Shown piece by piece: positions 28,881-56,151 of a DNA stretch of 64,000 nt; the stretch's first letter is position 1; each line of letters begins with the position of its first letter. The stretch lies in NCBI RefSeq assembly GCF_000243255.1, contig NZ_CM001436.1:842077-906076 (forward strand). Reading direction: 5' to 3'. Made by a program: the position numbers and the translations under genes. The notes below the pieces were generated by a model. The model was not told the origin of the DNA, made no database searches, and was given only the letters and a program-made list of their open reading frames with translations. The DNA comes from Methanoplanus limicola DSM 2279. GTDB lineage: Archaea > Halobacteriota > Methanomicrobia > Methanomicrobiales > Methanomicrobiaceae.

Positions 28881-29480
28881 CTAAAGAATGACAAAGCTCT
28901 TTGATTCAAGTCCCGGCGGAATTTCCTTTCTAAGAGTCATAACAGAACATTCAGAAGGCTGAATTTCAACGGTAAAATCTTCGTACACCCGCAGTGAATT
29001 AAGCAATTTCAGATTCAGGACAAATATCTCGCCGGGTTCAAGAAAGTTATTGCCGTTTCCATTGCGGACCGATTTTATGCCCCAGTGATTAACTGCCGGA
29101 TTTTCATTCATTATGGGATCACAGGGTATTAATTCATCATAGTGATCTCTGGTCATGCAAATGACATTGACTTTGGTGAAATCAACCGGATCTCCGGTTG
29201 GATTTATTGAAACCGGAATAAATATCGAGTCTGCCCTTACCGGAGAAAAAAGACTGTTTACCCCGGCATACATATCTCCGTTAAGGTTCAGAAAAGTCGA
29301 TGACATGCCAATACCGTCATGAACAGACTTTACATCCTGTGCAGCTGCATTGAAACCGGCGCCAAGAACCATATACGAAAATACTGCCGCTACAACCACA
29401 AATGCAATGAGGACTATCGCAGCTTCAAGCCCTGTAAATGCCTCATCATCCCCGGTTGCAGGATAAACCCTCCATGACAT
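28881..29480 (-). CDS. Archaellin (flagellin B family)
   Basis: The 199-residue protein has the class III signal peptide and hydrophobic N-terminal helix of archaellins: a short charged leader ending DDEA, then FTGLEAAIVLIAFVVVAAVF. After cleavage by the prepilin peptidase the helix packs in the core of the archaellum filament, while the remaining domain (about residues 50-199, with FIPVSINPTGDPVDFTKVNVICM) is outside. It has a near-identical N-terminus to the neighbour upstream, so both arose by duplication. No arl motor genes are in the window. It could also be a minor archaellin. Confidence 0.88.
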   Translation of the reverse strand: MSWRVYPATGDDEAFTGLEAAIVLIAFVVVAAVFSYMVLGAGFNAAAQDVKSVHDGIGMSSTFLNLNGDMYAGVNSLFSPVRADSIFIPVSINPTGDPVDFTKVNVICMTRDHYDELIPCDPIMNENPAVNHWGIKSVRNGNGNNFLEPGEIFVLNLKLLNSLRVYEDFTVEIQPSECSVMTLRKEIPPGLESKSFVIL

Positions 29481-29529: not shown

Positions 29530-30099
29530 TCATACAAGTTCATAATAATCATTCTTAACCAGATAATCAGGAATATCACGGCTAAAAGAGATGCCATGCC
29601 CTTCAGACGGAGTGACAGTTACCTTAAAAGAATCTCCTCCGGAAAGCAGGACTGAATCCAGATTGATCCTGACCTTCAGGATTTCACCATCCTCAAGAAT
29701 GCTGTCATCATCCGGACTTATCTTCCATTCATATTCAACAGATGAATCCCCGGGTAAATAATCCTCAATAAATTCATCTGTTGAGATATGATAAGAAATT
29801 TTACTGATGTCAATACCGGTTCCGCCTCCACAGTGCTCAAGATAAAACATAATATATCTCAGTTCAGAACCGGACAATTTTACTCTGCCAACAACGGTTC
29901 CGGCTAAATTCAGAGAGTTTGAAGTCTCCTTAAGGCCTGAATTTATGACATCCTCACTTTTGTCTGTCACAAAAAAACCTGCTCCAAGTACAACAAAGGC
30001 AAATACTGCTGCAACTACAACAAAAGCGGTTAAAACTATTGCAGCCTCAAGACCTGTAAAGGCCTCTGAACTTCCAGGTCCGGATGGCACAATAGTCAA
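29530..30099 (-). CDS. Archaellin (flagellin B family), second copy
   Basis: The 189-residue product begins with a leader ending SSEA followed by FTGLEAAIVLTAFVVVAAVF and FVVLGAGFFVTDKSE, the archaellin N-terminal helix. The outer domain (about 55-189) differs from that of the downstream copy but keeps the same ending pattern (DSFKVTVTPSEG...ISFSRDIP against EDFTVEIQPSE...LRKEIPPG). It is separated from the other archaellin gene by 49 bp on the same strand, so the pair is probably one transcript. It should be secreted and assembled into the archaellum. Confidence 0.88.
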   Translation of the reverse strand: MTIVPSGPGSSEAFTGLEAAIVLTAFVVVAAVFAFVVLGAGFFVTDKSEDVINSGLKETSNSLNLAGTVVGRVKLSGSELRYIMFYLEHCGGGTGIDISKISYHISTDEFIEDYLPGDSSVEYEWKISPDDDSILEDGEILKVRINLDSVLLSGGDSFKVTVTPSEGHGISFSRDIPDYLVKNDYYELV

Positions 30100-42950: not shown

Positions 42951-43781
42951 TCACATATTTTCAATTTTAATTATATATTCCTTAATTACTATTTTACTGA
43001 CGTCCTGAAGAGTATACTCGGCAGGAGTTCCCGAAGGAGTCAATCCTCCGGATATAATTGAATCTCCGCTGAAATAATTGTCCCAGGCAACAGAATAATC
43101 ATTGCCGGAGTCAGGAACATATTTTATCGTAACATCTGCTGTTGGGTCACAGTCATCTATTGTAGTATCAGGCGGATTTAACATACTCATCTGGAGAGCA
43201 CCTATACCACTCAGATACTGTTTAACCGGAGATTCTACAGAGAGCAGACTTATCACCAGAGTGCCGGTATCATCATCCATAAACCACCGGGGATCCGCAG
43301 CCATAACCGAACCGGCATTAAACTTCTGCCTTCTGACAAATGCGCCGTTCTCAATTGACATCACTGCCTCACCTTCAGAAGAGGTGTATCTCAGCTCCCC
43401 CGGGTAAAATATCTTACTTCCGGGTGAACCGTCAGAGAGAGTATATTCAATTTCAAAATACTGCACACTCTCAGATACGTTGATAGTCTCAAGATTACCC
43501 CCGGATACCATAACAGAGAGATCGCGATACGGAACATTGCTGAATGTCAGAATTTTCATATCATTCTGAATGGTTATCATCGTCTGCTCCATACTCTTCT
43601 CATCAGAACCAACCTGAGTTTCAATCAAAACCGGATAACCATAAAATGTAACCATCGCAATTCCGGTTATGACAATGGAGAACATTATTATAAACCCTAT
43701 AGATTCTGAAACTGCATTATCATCCCTTAAAGCCCTCAGACTATGTATAAATCCACATATGGTCTTAGAGCTTATAGTCAT
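42951..43781 (-). CDS. Pilin-like single-TM secreted protein (DUF7289-like)
   Basis: The 276-residue protein begins with a basic leader and the segment DDNAVSESIGFIIMFSIVITGIAMVTFYGYPVL, a single N-terminal membrane helix of the class III/pilin-like type. The ectodomain (about 50-276) includes EQTMITIQNDMKILTFSNVPYRDLSVMVSGGNL and FYPGELRYTSSEGEAVMSIENGAFV. This closely resembles the haloarchaeal DUF7289 pilin-like proteins in my memory. It is the last gene of a six-gene run; its ATG overlaps the previous stop by 4 bp. No pilus ATPase is near. Confidence 0.7.
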   Translation of the reverse strand: MTISSKTICGFIHSLRALRDDNAVSESIGFIIMFSIVITGIAMVTFYGYPVLIETQVGSDEKSMEQTMITIQNDMKILTFSNVPYRDLSVMVSGGNLETINVSESVQYFEIEYTLSDGSPGSKIFYPGELRYTSSEGEAVMSIENGAFVRRQKFNAGSVMAADPRWFMDDDTGTLVISLLSVESPVKQYLSGIGALQMSMLNPPDTTIDDCDPTADVTIKYVPDSGNDYSVAWDNYFSGDSIISGGLTPSGTPAEYTLQDVSKIVIKEYIIKIENM

Positions 43782-44311
43782 CTGAAACCTCCGGAGTCAT
43801 ATGTTATCACATTTTCACCTGTACCTGTGGTATTTCCTGTAACACCCCTTGTTGCACCTATACCTGAGAGGGAGATTCTTGTTGTAATATAACCGTCAGT
43901 GACAATTATAGTCTGTCCGGCCCCGGTCGCCAGTGGATCAAGCCTCAGATAATACTCTTTCCCGGCAACATCATCAGGAATATTAAAAGATGTCACAACC
44001 CTGCCGGTCTCAGGTGCAACCGCATAAAGATCCACAACCCTTACACTCATACCATTGCCAATATCCACAAAAGAGTTGTATTTTATAGTATTCGAGGGTT
44101 TTTCGATGAATATTGTGTTCGCCGCAAAAAAGACAACTACAAGCATCACAACCATGACTGTTGTAATGTTTAAATACTCAACCATAGTGCTCACTGCTGA
44201 GTCATCAGGCCTTCTGAGCATCCTTTTGCAGTTATTTATCACCCTGTCGGAGATATCCACCCCGTAACAAGGTAATTTTGACCAGAATAATAACTCAGAT
44301 GACAATATCAT
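43778..44311 (-). CDS. Pilin-like single-TM secreted protein (DUF7266-like)
   Basis: The 177-residue product has an N-terminal stretch with two Asp residues before the helix (RPDDSAVSTMVEYLNITTVMVVMLVVVFFAANTIFI), again the layout of archaeal pilin-like proteins. The remainder (SFVDIGNGMSVRVVDLYAVAPETGRVVTSFNIPDDVAGKEYYLRLDP) is an ectodomain of beta character, and the C-terminal part is Thr/Gly-rich. The chosen ATG at 44311 precedes about 35 residues before the helix; a later start near the DDSAV sequence is possible. It overlaps the downstream gene by 4 bp. Confidence 0.6.
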   Translation of the reverse strand: MILSSELLFWSKLPCYGVDISDRVINNCKRMLRRPDDSAVSTMVEYLNITTVMVVMLVVVFFAANTIFIEKPSNTIKYNSFVDIGNGMSVRVVDLYAVAPETGRVVTSFNIPDDVAGKEYYLRLDPLATGAGQTIIVTDGYITTRISLSGIGATRGVTGNTTGTGENVITYDSGGFR

Positions 44312-44346
44312 CCCCCGTATAGTATTTATTTTTCATTCAGAATACC

Positions 44347-44733
44347 TCATTTTTTTGTGAATAAATTATAGGATTCATCATATGTCGTAATTCCATTATT
44401 GAAATGGATTAAAACCTCAGTGTAATCATAAAGTGCATTGCTGCCGGGAGTGCCCTCTGATAGTTCAGATACGGAATTGCTCCTTGTAAGAGAGAGAAGA
44501 GACAGTTCATCAATAAGATCATTCTTTGTGCCGTTATCCTCAATTCTGAAAATTCCGGCTGAGAGATCCCTTACATCCTGAATTTCAGTCTTGGGAAATT
44601 CAAGCACAGCTTCTGAAGTGGTCTGCCCGACAAGGATCGACTGATTAATCAGAAAAGCCAGGAAAAATATTGAAACACTTACTACAAATCCCATAAGGAC
44701 AATCCACTGCCCTTCATCATTTATTCTCTCCAT
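44347..44733 (-). CDS. Pilin-like small single-TM protein
   Basis: The 128-residue protein opens MERINDEGQWIVLMGFVVSVSIFFLAFLINQSILVGQ: a charged leader, then one membrane helix. The glycine-glutamine at DEGQ is typical of the DUF7261-like group of archaeal pilin-like proteins. The ectodomain has EFPKTEIQDVRDLSAGIFRIEDNGTKNDLIDEL. It overlaps the gene upstream by 13 bp and is followed by the DUF7266-like gene after 35 bp. I cannot assign a function beyond assembly in an external structure or the cell surface. Confidence 0.55.
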   Translation of the reverse strand: MERINDEGQWIVLMGFVVSVSIFFLAFLINQSILVGQTTSEAVLEFPKTEIQDVRDLSAGIFRIEDNGTKNDLIDELSLLSLTRSNSVSELSEGTPGSNALYDYTEVLIHFNNGITTYDESYNLFTKK

Positions 44734-45236
44734 AATATCACCTCAAAGCGGACAATACTCTCACTTCCGTCCCATTCAGTCAAAAGATACCTCCCTGTAC
44801 TTACAGAAGGTCTTTTTGCGTAATTTTCCGGATTGTCAGGCAGGGACTGATTCTCAACCGCCCCGGCATCCACATAATATATAGCAGAACTGAAACTGAG
44901 TGAATCTACTATAGTGGTAGCACCGGTTCCGGATGAGATGAGTTCGCTAAAACTCTCTCTGAACTGCAGGGCAGCAGCAGACTCAGATACTCCTCCGGCG
45001 TCAATTCCGGAGACTATATCCTCAAGCTCACTCTCATCACCGTAAATATAAGGTGTTGACATAACCCTTAAGGCATCAAAGCCAAGCTGCTCAGTCTGCA
45101 TATCGCTGATATGGACATCTGCCGGGGTGTAAACCGAAGCAGTGCCCACTATAAAAAAAGCGGTTGTAAGCATGATGAGTCCGGCAACAAGGCCTTCAAT
45201 GGTAAAAAGCTGCGCTTCATCACCGGGAATCACCAT
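44721..45236 (-). CDS. Pilin-like single-TM secreted protein (DUF7288-like)
   Basis: The 171-residue product starts MVIPGDEAQLFTIEGLVAGLIMLTTAFFIVGTASV. The Gly-Asp-Glu-Ala leader followed by a hydrophobic helix with a Glu at position 14 resembles class III (type IV pilin) signal peptides, in which Glu at +5 is needed for assembly. The ectodomain starts YTPADVHISDMQTEQLGFDALRVMSTPYIYG. It is similar in pattern to the haloarchaeal DUF7288 proteins. It overlaps the upstream gene by 7 bp and the downstream gene by 13 bp. Confidence 0.6.
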   Translation of the reverse strand: MVIPGDEAQLFTIEGLVAGLIMLTTAFFIVGTASVYTPADVHISDMQTEQLGFDALRVMSTPYIYGDESELEDIVSGIDAGGVSESAAALQFRESFSELISSGTGATTIVDSLSFSSAIYYVDAGAVENQSLPDNPENYAKRPSVSTGRYLLTEWDGSESIVRFEVILWRE

Positions 45237-46315
45237 ACTGCAACCTCCATCACAACCGGAACCAGATAAGGTTCGGCCATATAATCCCGGCCGTAACCAT
45301 AATCGAAATCTCCGGATGTGTAGTTATGATCATATAAATTATTATCAAATTCATATGTCAGATTCATGACAACCTGAAATACCGCATCTGCCTGGGAGGA
45401 GAACATAGTCGGAGGGAGCAGCATAAATCTGACAGTATCAGAATCTGTCACATTAATGTCATCTGCTGAAGCATCACTTCCCATAGTATAATAAACCCCG
45501 TCAACATCGAACCTGTATGTGGTATTCTCAAAACGGTCATAATTCCTCGGAACATATGCCCCGGACTTGTAGTAACGTATCTTTGTAATCTTTACTGATG
45601 AGATATAGCTCTTATTCAGGGATGCTGAGAAATTTGAGATCTCAAATAATACAGAATCAGATAGTGGATTTATTCTGTACTCCACCGGAATTTCAGCATT
45701 GATGAGTTCACTGTAATTTAAACTGAGTGTAATATCTGTATCAACAGAGGTGAGATTTCTTTCAGCAATATTTGTATTGTATTCTTCGCAGTTAATCTCA
45801 GCCACAGGATCAATTCTGATAAGACCGAGTCTTCTCATATATCCATAACCCATATCCGGAACAGGAGAGCCTGCATAATAGGCAGGACCGTCCTTAATCT
45901 TCAGGGAGATGTTATAGTTGTACTCAATCTCACCGAATACCGCAAGGTCACGGTAATCATCATCCGTAAACTCAAAATTACCCTGATTAAAGAATTCAAT
46001 GACCTTTTTTTCAGATAAAACTGCCGGAGATTCAGAGGATAATGAAAGCCCGAATCTCTCGATCTCATCCTTATCCGGTACAGCCAGGTATTCCCAGCCA
46101 GGGTCTGAAGGAGAACCCGGGTCTTCCATCAGTATCACAGATGTCCGGTACGCAACAGCATCATAATCAATTCCTGCTCCATTTATACCGACAAAGAGTC
46201 CCGGAACGATACTGACCACCATTATAAAAGCCACAATAAAGATCCCAAAACCGACCAGAAAATCAATGGTAAGAAATCCGTCATCGCTACAGTAATCTCT
46301 CAGTTCAGACCACAT
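45230..46315 (-). CDS. Large pilin-like surface protein
   Basis: The 361-residue product is the largest in the cluster. The N-terminus MWSELRDYCSDDGFLTIDFLVGFGIFIVAFIMVVSIVPGLF has an acidic leader followed by a single helix with Asp at the helix start, as in pseudopilins. The ectodomain contains YDAVAYRTSVILMEDPGSPSDPGWEYLAVPD (about 50-80), later a beta-rich part with several Asn-X-Ser/Thr sequons that might be N-glycosylated, and ends YLVPVVMEVAVW. It overlaps both neighbours by a few bases. Probably located outside the membrane as an anchor or adhesion subunit. Confidence 0.65.
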   Translation of the reverse strand: MWSELRDYCSDDGFLTIDFLVGFGIFIVAFIMVVSIVPGLFVGINGAGIDYDAVAYRTSVILMEDPGSPSDPGWEYLAVPDKDEIERFGLSLSSESPAVLSEKKVIEFFNQGNFEFTDDDYRDLAVFGEIEYNYNISLKIKDGPAYYAGSPVPDMGYGYMRRLGLIRIDPVAEINCEEYNTNIAERNLTSVDTDITLSLNYSELINAEIPVEYRINPLSDSVLFEISNFSASLNKSYISSVKITKIRYYKSGAYVPRNYDRFENTTYRFDVDGVYYTMGSDASADDINVTDSDTVRFMLLPPTMFSSQADAVFQVVMNLTYEFDNNLYDHNYTSGDFDYGYGRDYMAEPYLVPVVMEVAVW

Positions 46316-46940
46316 CCCCGGTCATGGAATCAAACTTTAAGGCCGTCAGATTTCCTCTGTCATTGATAAAAATCCTGTAATAACCGGAAGTAATCTCAAT
46401 ATCCATATGAGAACTCTCAGAATTATCAGTTATTCCTGTTATAAGATCATAATTCTTCTCAAATAACTCAGCAGACGGGATAATCTCATCAGTATTAATC
46501 TCCCCGCCATACAGGACTCCGGGCCATTCCTCCTCCTGCCATCCCGGCAAAGTGTATTTTAATAAAACATTTTTACCATCACTGACAGCACCAACAATCC
46601 AGGAGTCACAATTTCCATATATATCTGCGTTGGTCCCGCGGATTATCCGCACAGAATAATTGTCCCCGGTGAGATAACCGTCAGAGACAGAGAGGTTTAA
46701 CTGCATAAACGCATACCTGAGATCCATTCTGTCATTATCAGAAAGAGAATCTCCGGAAGTATCATTAAATATTCCGGGGGGCTCTGAATCACCAGCAGAA
46801 TATGTATTTTCTCCGGACACCTGGCCGGCAGGCACTTCACCCAGACATCCGGATAAAAAAACAAGTGATGTAATGATGAGCAGAACTGAAAAAGAGAGAT
46901 ATTTCACAACAGCAACACCGGTCATATTTACAGATTCCAT
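46305..46940 (-). CDS. Lipoprotein, first gene of the pilin-like operon
   Basis: The 211-residue protein has a signal peptide with a lipobox (YLSFSVLLIITSLVFLSGCLG, cleavage before C32), so it is expected to be lipid-anchored on the outer face. The mature part includes a Ser/Thr/Gly-rich linker, then MDLRYAFMQLNLSVSDGYLTGDNYSVRIIRGT and a C-terminal YYRIFINDRGNLTALKFDS. It starts the six-gene operon and ends 11 bp inside the next gene. I do not recognise the family. An in-frame ATG five codons later is an alternative start. Confidence 0.65.
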   Translation of the reverse strand: MESVNMTGVAVVKYLSFSVLLIITSLVFLSGCLGEVPAGQVSGENTYSAGDSEPPGIFNDTSGDSLSDNDRMDLRYAFMQLNLSVSDGYLTGDNYSVRIIRGTNADIYGNCDSWIVGAVSDGKNVLLKYTLPGWQEEEWPGVLYGGEINTDEIIPSAELFEKNYDLITGITDNSESSHMDIEITSGYYRIFINDRGNLTALKFDSMTGDVV

Positions 46941-47087
46941 ATTTAAGATGAAACATTAATTAATCTTTGCCGGATAATCCGCCAGGAAATAATATTCACT
47001 GATGACAGATAACTGTCAGTAATGATACAGAACAGCAACAGAGGCATGAATATATTTCCGGAAAATAAAAAAGAATCGCTGAAAAAA

Positions 47088-47121
47088 CACCTTAAAAAAC
47101 GCCATAGAGGCAATTAAGGTG
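47088..47121 (-). terminator. Hairpin downstream of the DUF1015 gene
   Basis: CACCTTAA (47088-47095) and TTAAGGTG (47114-47121) are perfect 8-bp arms, 22 bp after the stop codon of the DUF1015 gene. On the minus strand the stem is followed by a TTTTTTC tract, which fits a terminator. Confidence 0.5.
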
Positions 47122-47142
47122 CAATTCAGGCAAAAAATACCC

Positions 47143-55308: not shown

Positions 55309-56151
55309 ATGGCATCAATAAGCGATTTAAAACTTGACGAGGCAGTGAACATAGGAAATCTCATCCTGACCCCTGAAAATGTTATTGCCTGTCTAATATC
55401 AATATTAATTGGATATATAATTGTAAGAATACTAACCTGCAGGATGGAGGAGATCATTGGCAAAAACACAAAAATGCCAAAGATAATGACAATTCACCTC
55501 ATAAAAGCAGTGAAATTATTCCTATATCTGATTGTAATTCTCATCGCACTTGGATTTATCGGTGTCCAGTCGGCAACGATTATCCTAAGTGTAATGGCAT
55601 TTATAAGTATAATTTTAGGTTTTGGTCTTCAGGACACTGTCAACAATATCGCTTCCGGTGTCTGGATTGCATCATCAAAGGCATATGATATTGATGACGA
55701 AGTTGTACTCGCCGGTGAATCCGGAGTTGTCAAGGATATGAACATTATGGCAACCGAGATTAAAAGGCTTGACAATACAAGGGTATTTATCCCAAACGGA
55801 AAGATCTGGAACGGCAGCATCGTAAATGTTACAAGAATGCCTACAAGGTTAATAGCAGCCGAATACGGGGTTGCATATGATACAGATATAAAAGATGCGA
55901 TGGATGCAGCGCTTACAGTCTGCGAGAGGCATCCAAAACTTCACAGGGATCCAAAACCAATTGTAAGATTCAGGGAGATGGCAGATTCAGCAGTAATCCT
56001 GCAGTTAAGAGTCTGGGTCGATACTGACGACTACTATCAGGTGAAATCAGATGTATTGAATATGCTTTATGATGAACTCAATGCAAGGGACATCTCAATA
56101 CCATTCCCGCAGAGGGATGTACACTTATACGGGCATAATGAAACTGCCTGA
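55309..56151 (+). CDS. MscS-family mechanosensitive channel
   Basis: The 280-residue protein has three membrane helices, the third being the pore helix with SVMAFISIILGFGLQDTVNNIASGVWI, the conserved Gly/Ala-rich TM3 region of MscS. The soluble beta domain begins DIDDEVVLAGESGVVKDMNIMATEIKRLDNTRVFIPNGKIW. It opens under membrane tension to release osmolytes. The ATG follows AAGGGA. A stand-alone gene upstream of the phosphate transporter operon. Confidence 0.92.
   Translation: MASISDLKLDEAVNIGNLILTPENVIACLISILIGYIIVRILTCRMEEIIGKNTKMPKIMTIHLIKAVKLFLYLIVILIALGFIGVQSATIILSVMAFISIILGFGLQDTVNNIASGVWIASSKAYDIDDEVVLAGESGVVKDMNIMATEIKRLDNTRVFIPNGKIWNGSIVNVTRMPTRLIAAEYGVAYDTDIKDAMDAALTVCERHPKLHRDPKPIVRFREMADSAVILQLRVWVDTDDYYQVKSDVLNMLYDELNARDISIPFPQRDVHLYGHNETA

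Follow-up and report, generated by a model that had tools for sequence, protein, structure and literature searches.

An operon of five pilins and a lipoprotein in Methanoplanus limicola is probably the accessory pilin set of a type IV pilus whose motor is encoded elsewhere

What can a cluster of pilin-like genes do when no pilus motor is encoded beside it? The question is raised by a 64,000-nucleotide stretch of the Methanoplanus limicola DSM 2279 genome (contig NZ_CM001436.1, positions 842,077 to 906,076; here called the window). Its minus strand carries at 42951-46940 a tight, conserved operon of five pilins and one lipoprotein, consisting of six open reading frames (ORFs) in the 5'-3' order p6, p5, p4, p3, p2, p1, each encoding a protein with a single predicted membrane helix. 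With the starts as listed, the p6-p5, p5-p4, p4-p3 and p2-p1 junctions overlap by 11, 7, 13 and 4 bp, respectively, and the 35-bp gap between p3 and p2 is the only junction without overlap. A profile search found no match to the ATPase family PF00437 or the TadC family PF00482 within the 64-kb window; the nearest matches are about 211-213 kb from the operon. A preliminary description of this DNA had claimed a six-gene operon at 42951-46940 with overlaps of 4-13 bp at most junctions and no ATPase or platform gene close by, and in all these points it was correct; only its title needs correction, to five pilins and a single lipoprotein. The operon is, however, not a new kind of surface structure. 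It probably encodes the accessory (minor) pilins of a euryarchaeal type IV pilus belonging to clade 2 (Makarova 2016) as well as a lineage-specific lipoprotein, and the pilus is most likely driven by one of the PilB ATPase/TadC pairs encoded elsewhere in the genome (motor B).

Class III signal peptides, characterized by a short charged leader, Gly or Ala at position -1 and a hydrophobic helix, were recognizable in all five pilins. A strict rule ([KRDE][GA] followed by a hydrophobic stretch; the slash marks the site) was satisfied by p5 (45230..46315, 361 amino acids; CSDDG/FLTIDF, with an acidic residue at +5), p4 (44721..45236, 171 amino acids; GDEA/QLFTIE) and p3 (44347..44733, 128 amino acids; NDEG/QWIVLM, without an acidic residue near +5 or +6). 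The sites of p2 (43778..44311, 177 amino acids as listed; DSA/VSTMVE) and p1 (42951..43781, 276 amino acids; DDNA/VSESIG), which have Ser or Asn at -2, fitted only a relaxed pattern. Since only eight of the 62 non-overlapping window ORFs of at least 100 amino acids fit the relaxed pattern and five of them are the operon pilins, the pattern exceeds chance; the other three are two archaellin-like genes and an ORF at 55309-56151, which is probably a false hit. Among homologs the site was found by the simple rule in 71/138 p5, 110/131 p4, 114/116 p3, 80/126 p2 and 125/147 p1 sequences, the misses including wrong ORF starts, false long ORFs and sites outside the rule. A gene for a prepilin peptidase (Peptidase_A24) is located at C1:1771316-1771660, adjoining motor B.

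In a Pfam search p5 matched DUF7287 (E 4.2e-9, 37.6 bits), p4 matched DUF7288 (E 1.3e-7, 32.6 bits) and p1 matched DUF7289 (E 3.6e-12, 46.8 bits), each with a cut-off of 27 bits. The match of p2 to DUF7266 (E 1.8e-5, 24.9 bits) was below the cut-off of 27.6. The calls of p5, p4 and p2 are mechanical ORF calls, and the true start of p2 is uncertain: an internal Met before LRRPDDSA appears to agree better with homolog lengths of about 150 amino acids. Although p3 had no Pfam match of its own, its profile aligned with the haloarchaeal DUF7261-like p3 proteins (hhalign, 92% probability, E 5e-7, 58 columns), and its place in the gene order is that of the DUF7261-like proteins in haloarchaeal-type clusters. 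A match of p3 to MotA in NCBIfam was discarded as a chance match; NCBIfam was otherwise empty for the operon proteins. No credible match to p1 was found among solved-structure sequences. The AlphaFold2 model of p5, the only pilin modelled (mean predicted local distance difference test score, pLDDT, 88.8), has N-terminal helices at residues 12-36 and 48-64 (a split helix) followed mostly by beta strands, that is, the pilin-like layout of an N-terminal helix and a beta-rich head. The beta-rich ectodomains that had been proposed for all five proteins are thus supported for p5 only. The best fold likeness of the p5 model (VIA, Z 5.2 over 111 residues, root-mean-square deviation (rmsd) 3.8) was not used, as common beta sandwiches score alike.

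How far is this arrangement conserved? All five pilins were present in 21/21 Methanomicrobiales loci (20 relatives and the window), and the gene order DUF1015-p6-p5-p4-p3-p2-p1-eIF1A is kept in the loci of this order. The comparison was widened to 79 loci from named genomes, 75 of them titled within Methanomicrobiales, one Methanococcoides and three titled only Euryarchaeota. The pilin order was identical wherever the genes were complete, apart from long overlapping ORFs (e.g. in L158 and L160) that are artefacts, and p6 was undetected in some loci. The flanks of these 79 loci, fetched to at most 10 kb and less where the contig ended sooner, had no ATPase or TadC match. By Pfam, p4 was detected in 39 of 40 near relatives within the order, and by our own profile in 89 of the 119 genomes of the order; none of the cassette loci in the order set lacks a p1 homolog. 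In the phylum, DUF7287 was found in 141 of the 196 genomes drawn. Gene-order conservation across Methanomicrobiales, the lack of which would have counted against the proposal of the preliminary description, was thus observed.

Loci from other lineages bear on the motor question. Thirty-five cassette loci outside Methanomicrobiales (33 genomes, two of which gave two each) were chosen for variety, and hence not at random, from phylum-level DUF7287 matches. A PilB ATPase and a TadC gene were present within the fetched stretch in 16 of the 35 loci, and in 14 they were not more than 600 bp from the cassette; in L115, for instance, the genes PilB, TadC, DUF7287, DUF7288, DUF7266 and DUF7289 stand in a row. 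This linkage outside the order marks the cassette as the pilin component of a type IV pilus machinery; the missing local motor is peculiar to the Methanomicrobiales loci and does not characterize the system. These pilin families are shared by loci that carry a PilB ATPase and TadC, as expected of a clade-2 system; the clade-2 label is suggested by the published description together with the shared families, our own ATPase tree being built without references from the published clades.

Comparison with known systems points in the same direction. The Haloferax volcanii PilB4 locus, as the text of PMC4858521 describes its Figure 4B, likewise has several diverse pilins as a set. Homologous cassettes of the relatives adjoin PilB/TadC, whereas the Methanomicrobiales set is unlinked from a motor and begins with a lipoprotein gene for which the other lineages showed no counterpart. 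Judging from the same text, p1 would be comparable to arCOG02911, a shared minor pilin, in its range of lengths and its tendency to duplicate. The haloarchaeal-type counterparts matched the same Pfam families strongly, DUF7261 included, and in the same order (DUF7287/DUF7288/DUF7261/DUF7266/DUF7289). The haloarchaeal p5 proteins are, however, short (148 and 155 amino acids in the two tested) in comparison with the 361 amino acids and enlarged beta domain of the window p5, and some haloarchaeal-type clusters, unlike the cassette of the window, directly adjoin pilB-pilC. The preliminary description was therefore right about the pilin-like proteins, their class III signals (three strict, two relaxed), the operon and the kinship with haloarchaeal DUF7288/DUF7289/DUF7261/DUF7266 clusters, here established by Pfam and, for p3, by profile comparison. 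Its suggestion that such a structure was not yet described in methanogens was overstated, because the kind is a catalogued euryarchaeal type IV pilus according to the text of PMC4858521, and 16 of the 35 outside loci have PilB/TadC nearby.

Which motor could serve the operon in M. limicola? The genome has four ATPase plus TadC loci. Motor A (1116.8-1119.6 kb) has a single TadC of 647 amino acids, motor B (C1:1765.7-1768.5 kb) has two TadC genes and the prepilin peptidase gene at 1771.3 kb, motor C (2449-2451.6 kb) is followed by four pilin genes, and D is the archaellum. Three non-archaellum loci, A, B and C, thus offer candidates for the distant PilB/PilC-type pair that the preliminary description had envisaged. 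Motor C was set aside as partner: it has its own pilin genes alongside, and no C-type locus was among the matches of several cassette-positive genomes (e.g. G001, G002 and G138).

Co-occurrence of the cassette with motors A and B was determined for 26 Methanomicrobiales genomes. With p4 as the marker of the cassette, 18 were positive and eight negative; the eight were negative for p5 too. Another genome, G221, lacks p4 yet has a cut p5, so some absences are assembly gaps. ATPase matches were listed to E 1e-8, and the low-scoring ones (frames of about 630-710 amino acids near B) were kept outside the tree. Thirteen ATPases first taken as archaellum components by length all grouped with the archaellum, and all had a FlaH-like neighbour. 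Motor B was present in 18/18 cassette-positive and in 3/8 cassette-negative genomes. In the cassette-positive genome G138, motor B is the sole motor apart from the archaellum ATPase and one ATPase match of low score. Outside the order, the motors near the cassettes of L097 and L131 have two TadC genes, like motor B. On these comparisons motor B is likely the best partner of the cassette.

The strongest competitor is that the cassette serves motor A, or all motors alike, and not B specially; we consider this unlikely, though a serious contender. Motor A was present in 17/18 cassette-positive genomes, and, according to the text of PMC6491452, PilB3-C3 of Haloferax can rescue the loss of another motor pair. 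On the other hand, motor A was equally common without the cassette (7/8), and in G138 the cassette is present and A is absent. In our own ATPase tree the 16 cassette-linked ATPases were scattered: two were placed near B and five near A, six had long branches beside C, and the remaining three formed a group apart; by itself the tree did not decide between A and B.

Assuming motor B, the system might work as follows. The five prepilins (DUF7287, DUF7288, DUF7261-like, DUF7266-like and DUF7289) would enter the membrane and would be cut by the prepilin peptidase of the genome. The processed p1-p5 would assemble in the membrane as one complex, prime the pilus and become its tip. The shaft would be extruded by a PilB ATPase/TadC platform from another locus, most likely motor B, and would consist of PilA-type pilins, likewise encoded elsewhere; the genome has nine matches to Pilin_N (PilA-type), eight of them over the cut-off. 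Adhesion is the default role of archaeal pili, and the pilus may serve adhesion or DNA capture. A separation of pilin genes from the motor has precedents: ATPase/TadC modules may operate with pilin sets encoded elsewhere, as argued in the text of PMC4858521, and partial exchange between Haloferax motors is reported in that of PMC6491452.

The proposed tip position derives from the acidic residues behind the cleavage site and from grafted modules. Among members with a site, an acidic residue was found at +5 in 67/71 p5, at +6 in 96/110 p4 and 57/80 p2, and at +3 in 109/125 p1 proteins, whereas it was almost absent from p3 (2/114, at +1). The outermost pilin at the tip of bacterial type IV filaments, exemplified by GspK, has no acidic residue at +5. 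Members of the cassette carry grafted modules in other lineages: PKD and VWA on p2, and VWA or immunoglobulin-like ones on p3. Outside the order, p2 reached 790-969 amino acids in 6/35 members and p3 400-907 in 4/24, and p5 is the enlarged protein within the order (median 359 amino acids in 21 members compared with 208 in 37 outside). By analogy, this pattern would resemble a tip complex whose functional heads can be exchanged. Com pili, type IVa pili and the type II secretion system are known to have tip complexes made up of four minor pilins (text of PMC12153270). They share with the cassette a fixed-order operon of small pilins, modules grafted in some lineages, and a member which, like p3, has almost no acidic residue near +5; the cassette differs in having five genes, not four, and the likeness is one of analogy. 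We tentatively suggest, at somewhat less than an even chance, that the cassette corresponds in archaea to the minor-pilin tip complex of bacteria and forms a conserved priming cap, common to different PilB/TadC motors, whose members receive modules according to lineage. The motor-free, lipoprotein-bearing Methanomicrobiales form would then be an interchangeable pilus tip for adhesion or DNA capture.

DNA capture by the cassette pilus is possible, because a type IV-like pilus has been reported to be essential for transformation of Methanoculleus thermophilus (PMC10133366 and PMC11267900, in their text citing Fonseca 2020). Two of the four tip minor pilins of Com pili capture DNA (text of PMC12153270), and the cassette is widespread in the order, as the 89/119 count for p4 indicates. 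However, no sequence feature of the cassette favours DNA binding, and that the cassette is specifically the DNA-capture pilus of Methanomicrobiales seems rather improbable. A still weaker candidate is a short secretion pseudopilus that lacks a long shaft and a PilA partner. The operon has no PilA gene, its five dissimilar pilins in a constant order are reminiscent of GspG-K, and a lipoprotein is present; but the set adjoins PilB/TadC in relatives, the genome has PilA-type genes, and such sets are treated as pilus components in the text of PMC4858521, which makes a pseudopilus quite unlikely. A functionless relic, which the missing local motor and the 30 of 119 order genomes with no p4 match might suggest, is hardly credible given that the overlapping ORFs are intact and that dozens of loci from named genomes have retained the gene order.

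The assignment to an accessory pilin set driven by motor B builds on family kinship, conserved sites, gene order, the motor linkage in relatives and the co-occurrence with motor B, but several results weigh against it. The lack of a p4 match in those 30 genomes indicates that the cassette is dispensable. Only some of the linked ATPases from other lineages group with B; five (L126, L133, L103, L129, L135) branch near A, so that A could equally serve. The association of motor B with the cassette (Fisher p = 0.0009) is overstated, since the eight negative genomes are not independent, four of them being of one genus. Three draft genomes (G027, G150, G194) have motor B with no p4 or p5 detected, possibly by loss of the cassette, strong divergence or assembly gaps. 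As to the tip, its position would rest on analogy; a Foldseek search with the p5 model gave no match at E <=0.001, hence no convincing likeness to a solved pilin, and in hhalign the likeness of the p4 and p5 profiles was not significant.

The first gene of the operon, p6 (46305..46940, minus strand), codes for a predicted exported lipoprotein of 211 amino acids with a lipobox-like LSGC after a hydrophobic stretch, in agreement with the lipoprotein that had been placed at the head of the operon. It had no Pfam family and no credible match among solved-structure sequences. Its AlphaFold2 model has a mean pLDDT of 84.5, rising to about 95 within the domain. It is confident over approximately residues 70-211 and was similar to 4exr, a putative lipoprotein of C. 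difficile (Z 10.3, 124 residues, rmsd 3.2). The C-terminal half was similar to the small chains 3nqz, 4hbr, 3u1w, 2gu3 and 4k61 (Z 5.8-4.3 over 51-59 residues), which we take to be PepSY-type; the PepSY sequence family was not among the family matches of 56 p6 members. In the loci compared inside and outside the order, p6 homologs were found in Methanomicrobiales-type loci only. The lipobox Cys is missing from at least two of them (L031, L042), so the anchor can differ. In L198, the sole such arrangement in the 79 loci, p6 and DUF1015 are jointly inverted and stand behind p1, which shows that p6 is separable from the pilin genes. Our guess is that p6 is an accessory or chaperone part.

The intergenic stretch upstream of the operon (46941..47142, minus strand) has runs rich in T behind DUF1015 as well as a promoter-like AT-rich segment, and suggests that the operon may be a separate transcription unit. 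In the nearest relative an extra transposase-like ORF lies between CorA and eIF1A (L029:4139-5275). Elsewhere in the window, two tandem minus-strand genes (28881-29480 and 29530-30099) have archaellin-like N-termini (EA/FTGLEAAIVL); further archaellin-like copies are located beside motor A (one, L110:7864-8475) and in the archaellum locus L113 (two). On the opposite strand beside motor A there are two ORFs that resemble KaiC-type ATPases by their start sequences (L110:13657-15182). The locus L114 (C1:722000-741900) codes for a class III-site protein of 1121 amino acids, possibly a large modular pilin, with a pilin-like gene of 296 amino acids nearby.

In the open-licence PMC literature no paper was found that names DUF7287, DUF7288, DUF7289, DUF7266 or DUF7261. 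As far as the article texts searched show, this analysis adds four points: an explicit cassette of five families that extends across the phylum, the detachment of that cassette from the motor in Methanomicrobiales, a candidate motor, and a lipoprotein specific to the lineage. A likely common role is thereby proposed for five Pfam families whose function was unknown, and of the three motors that come into question in a methanogen order one is singled out.

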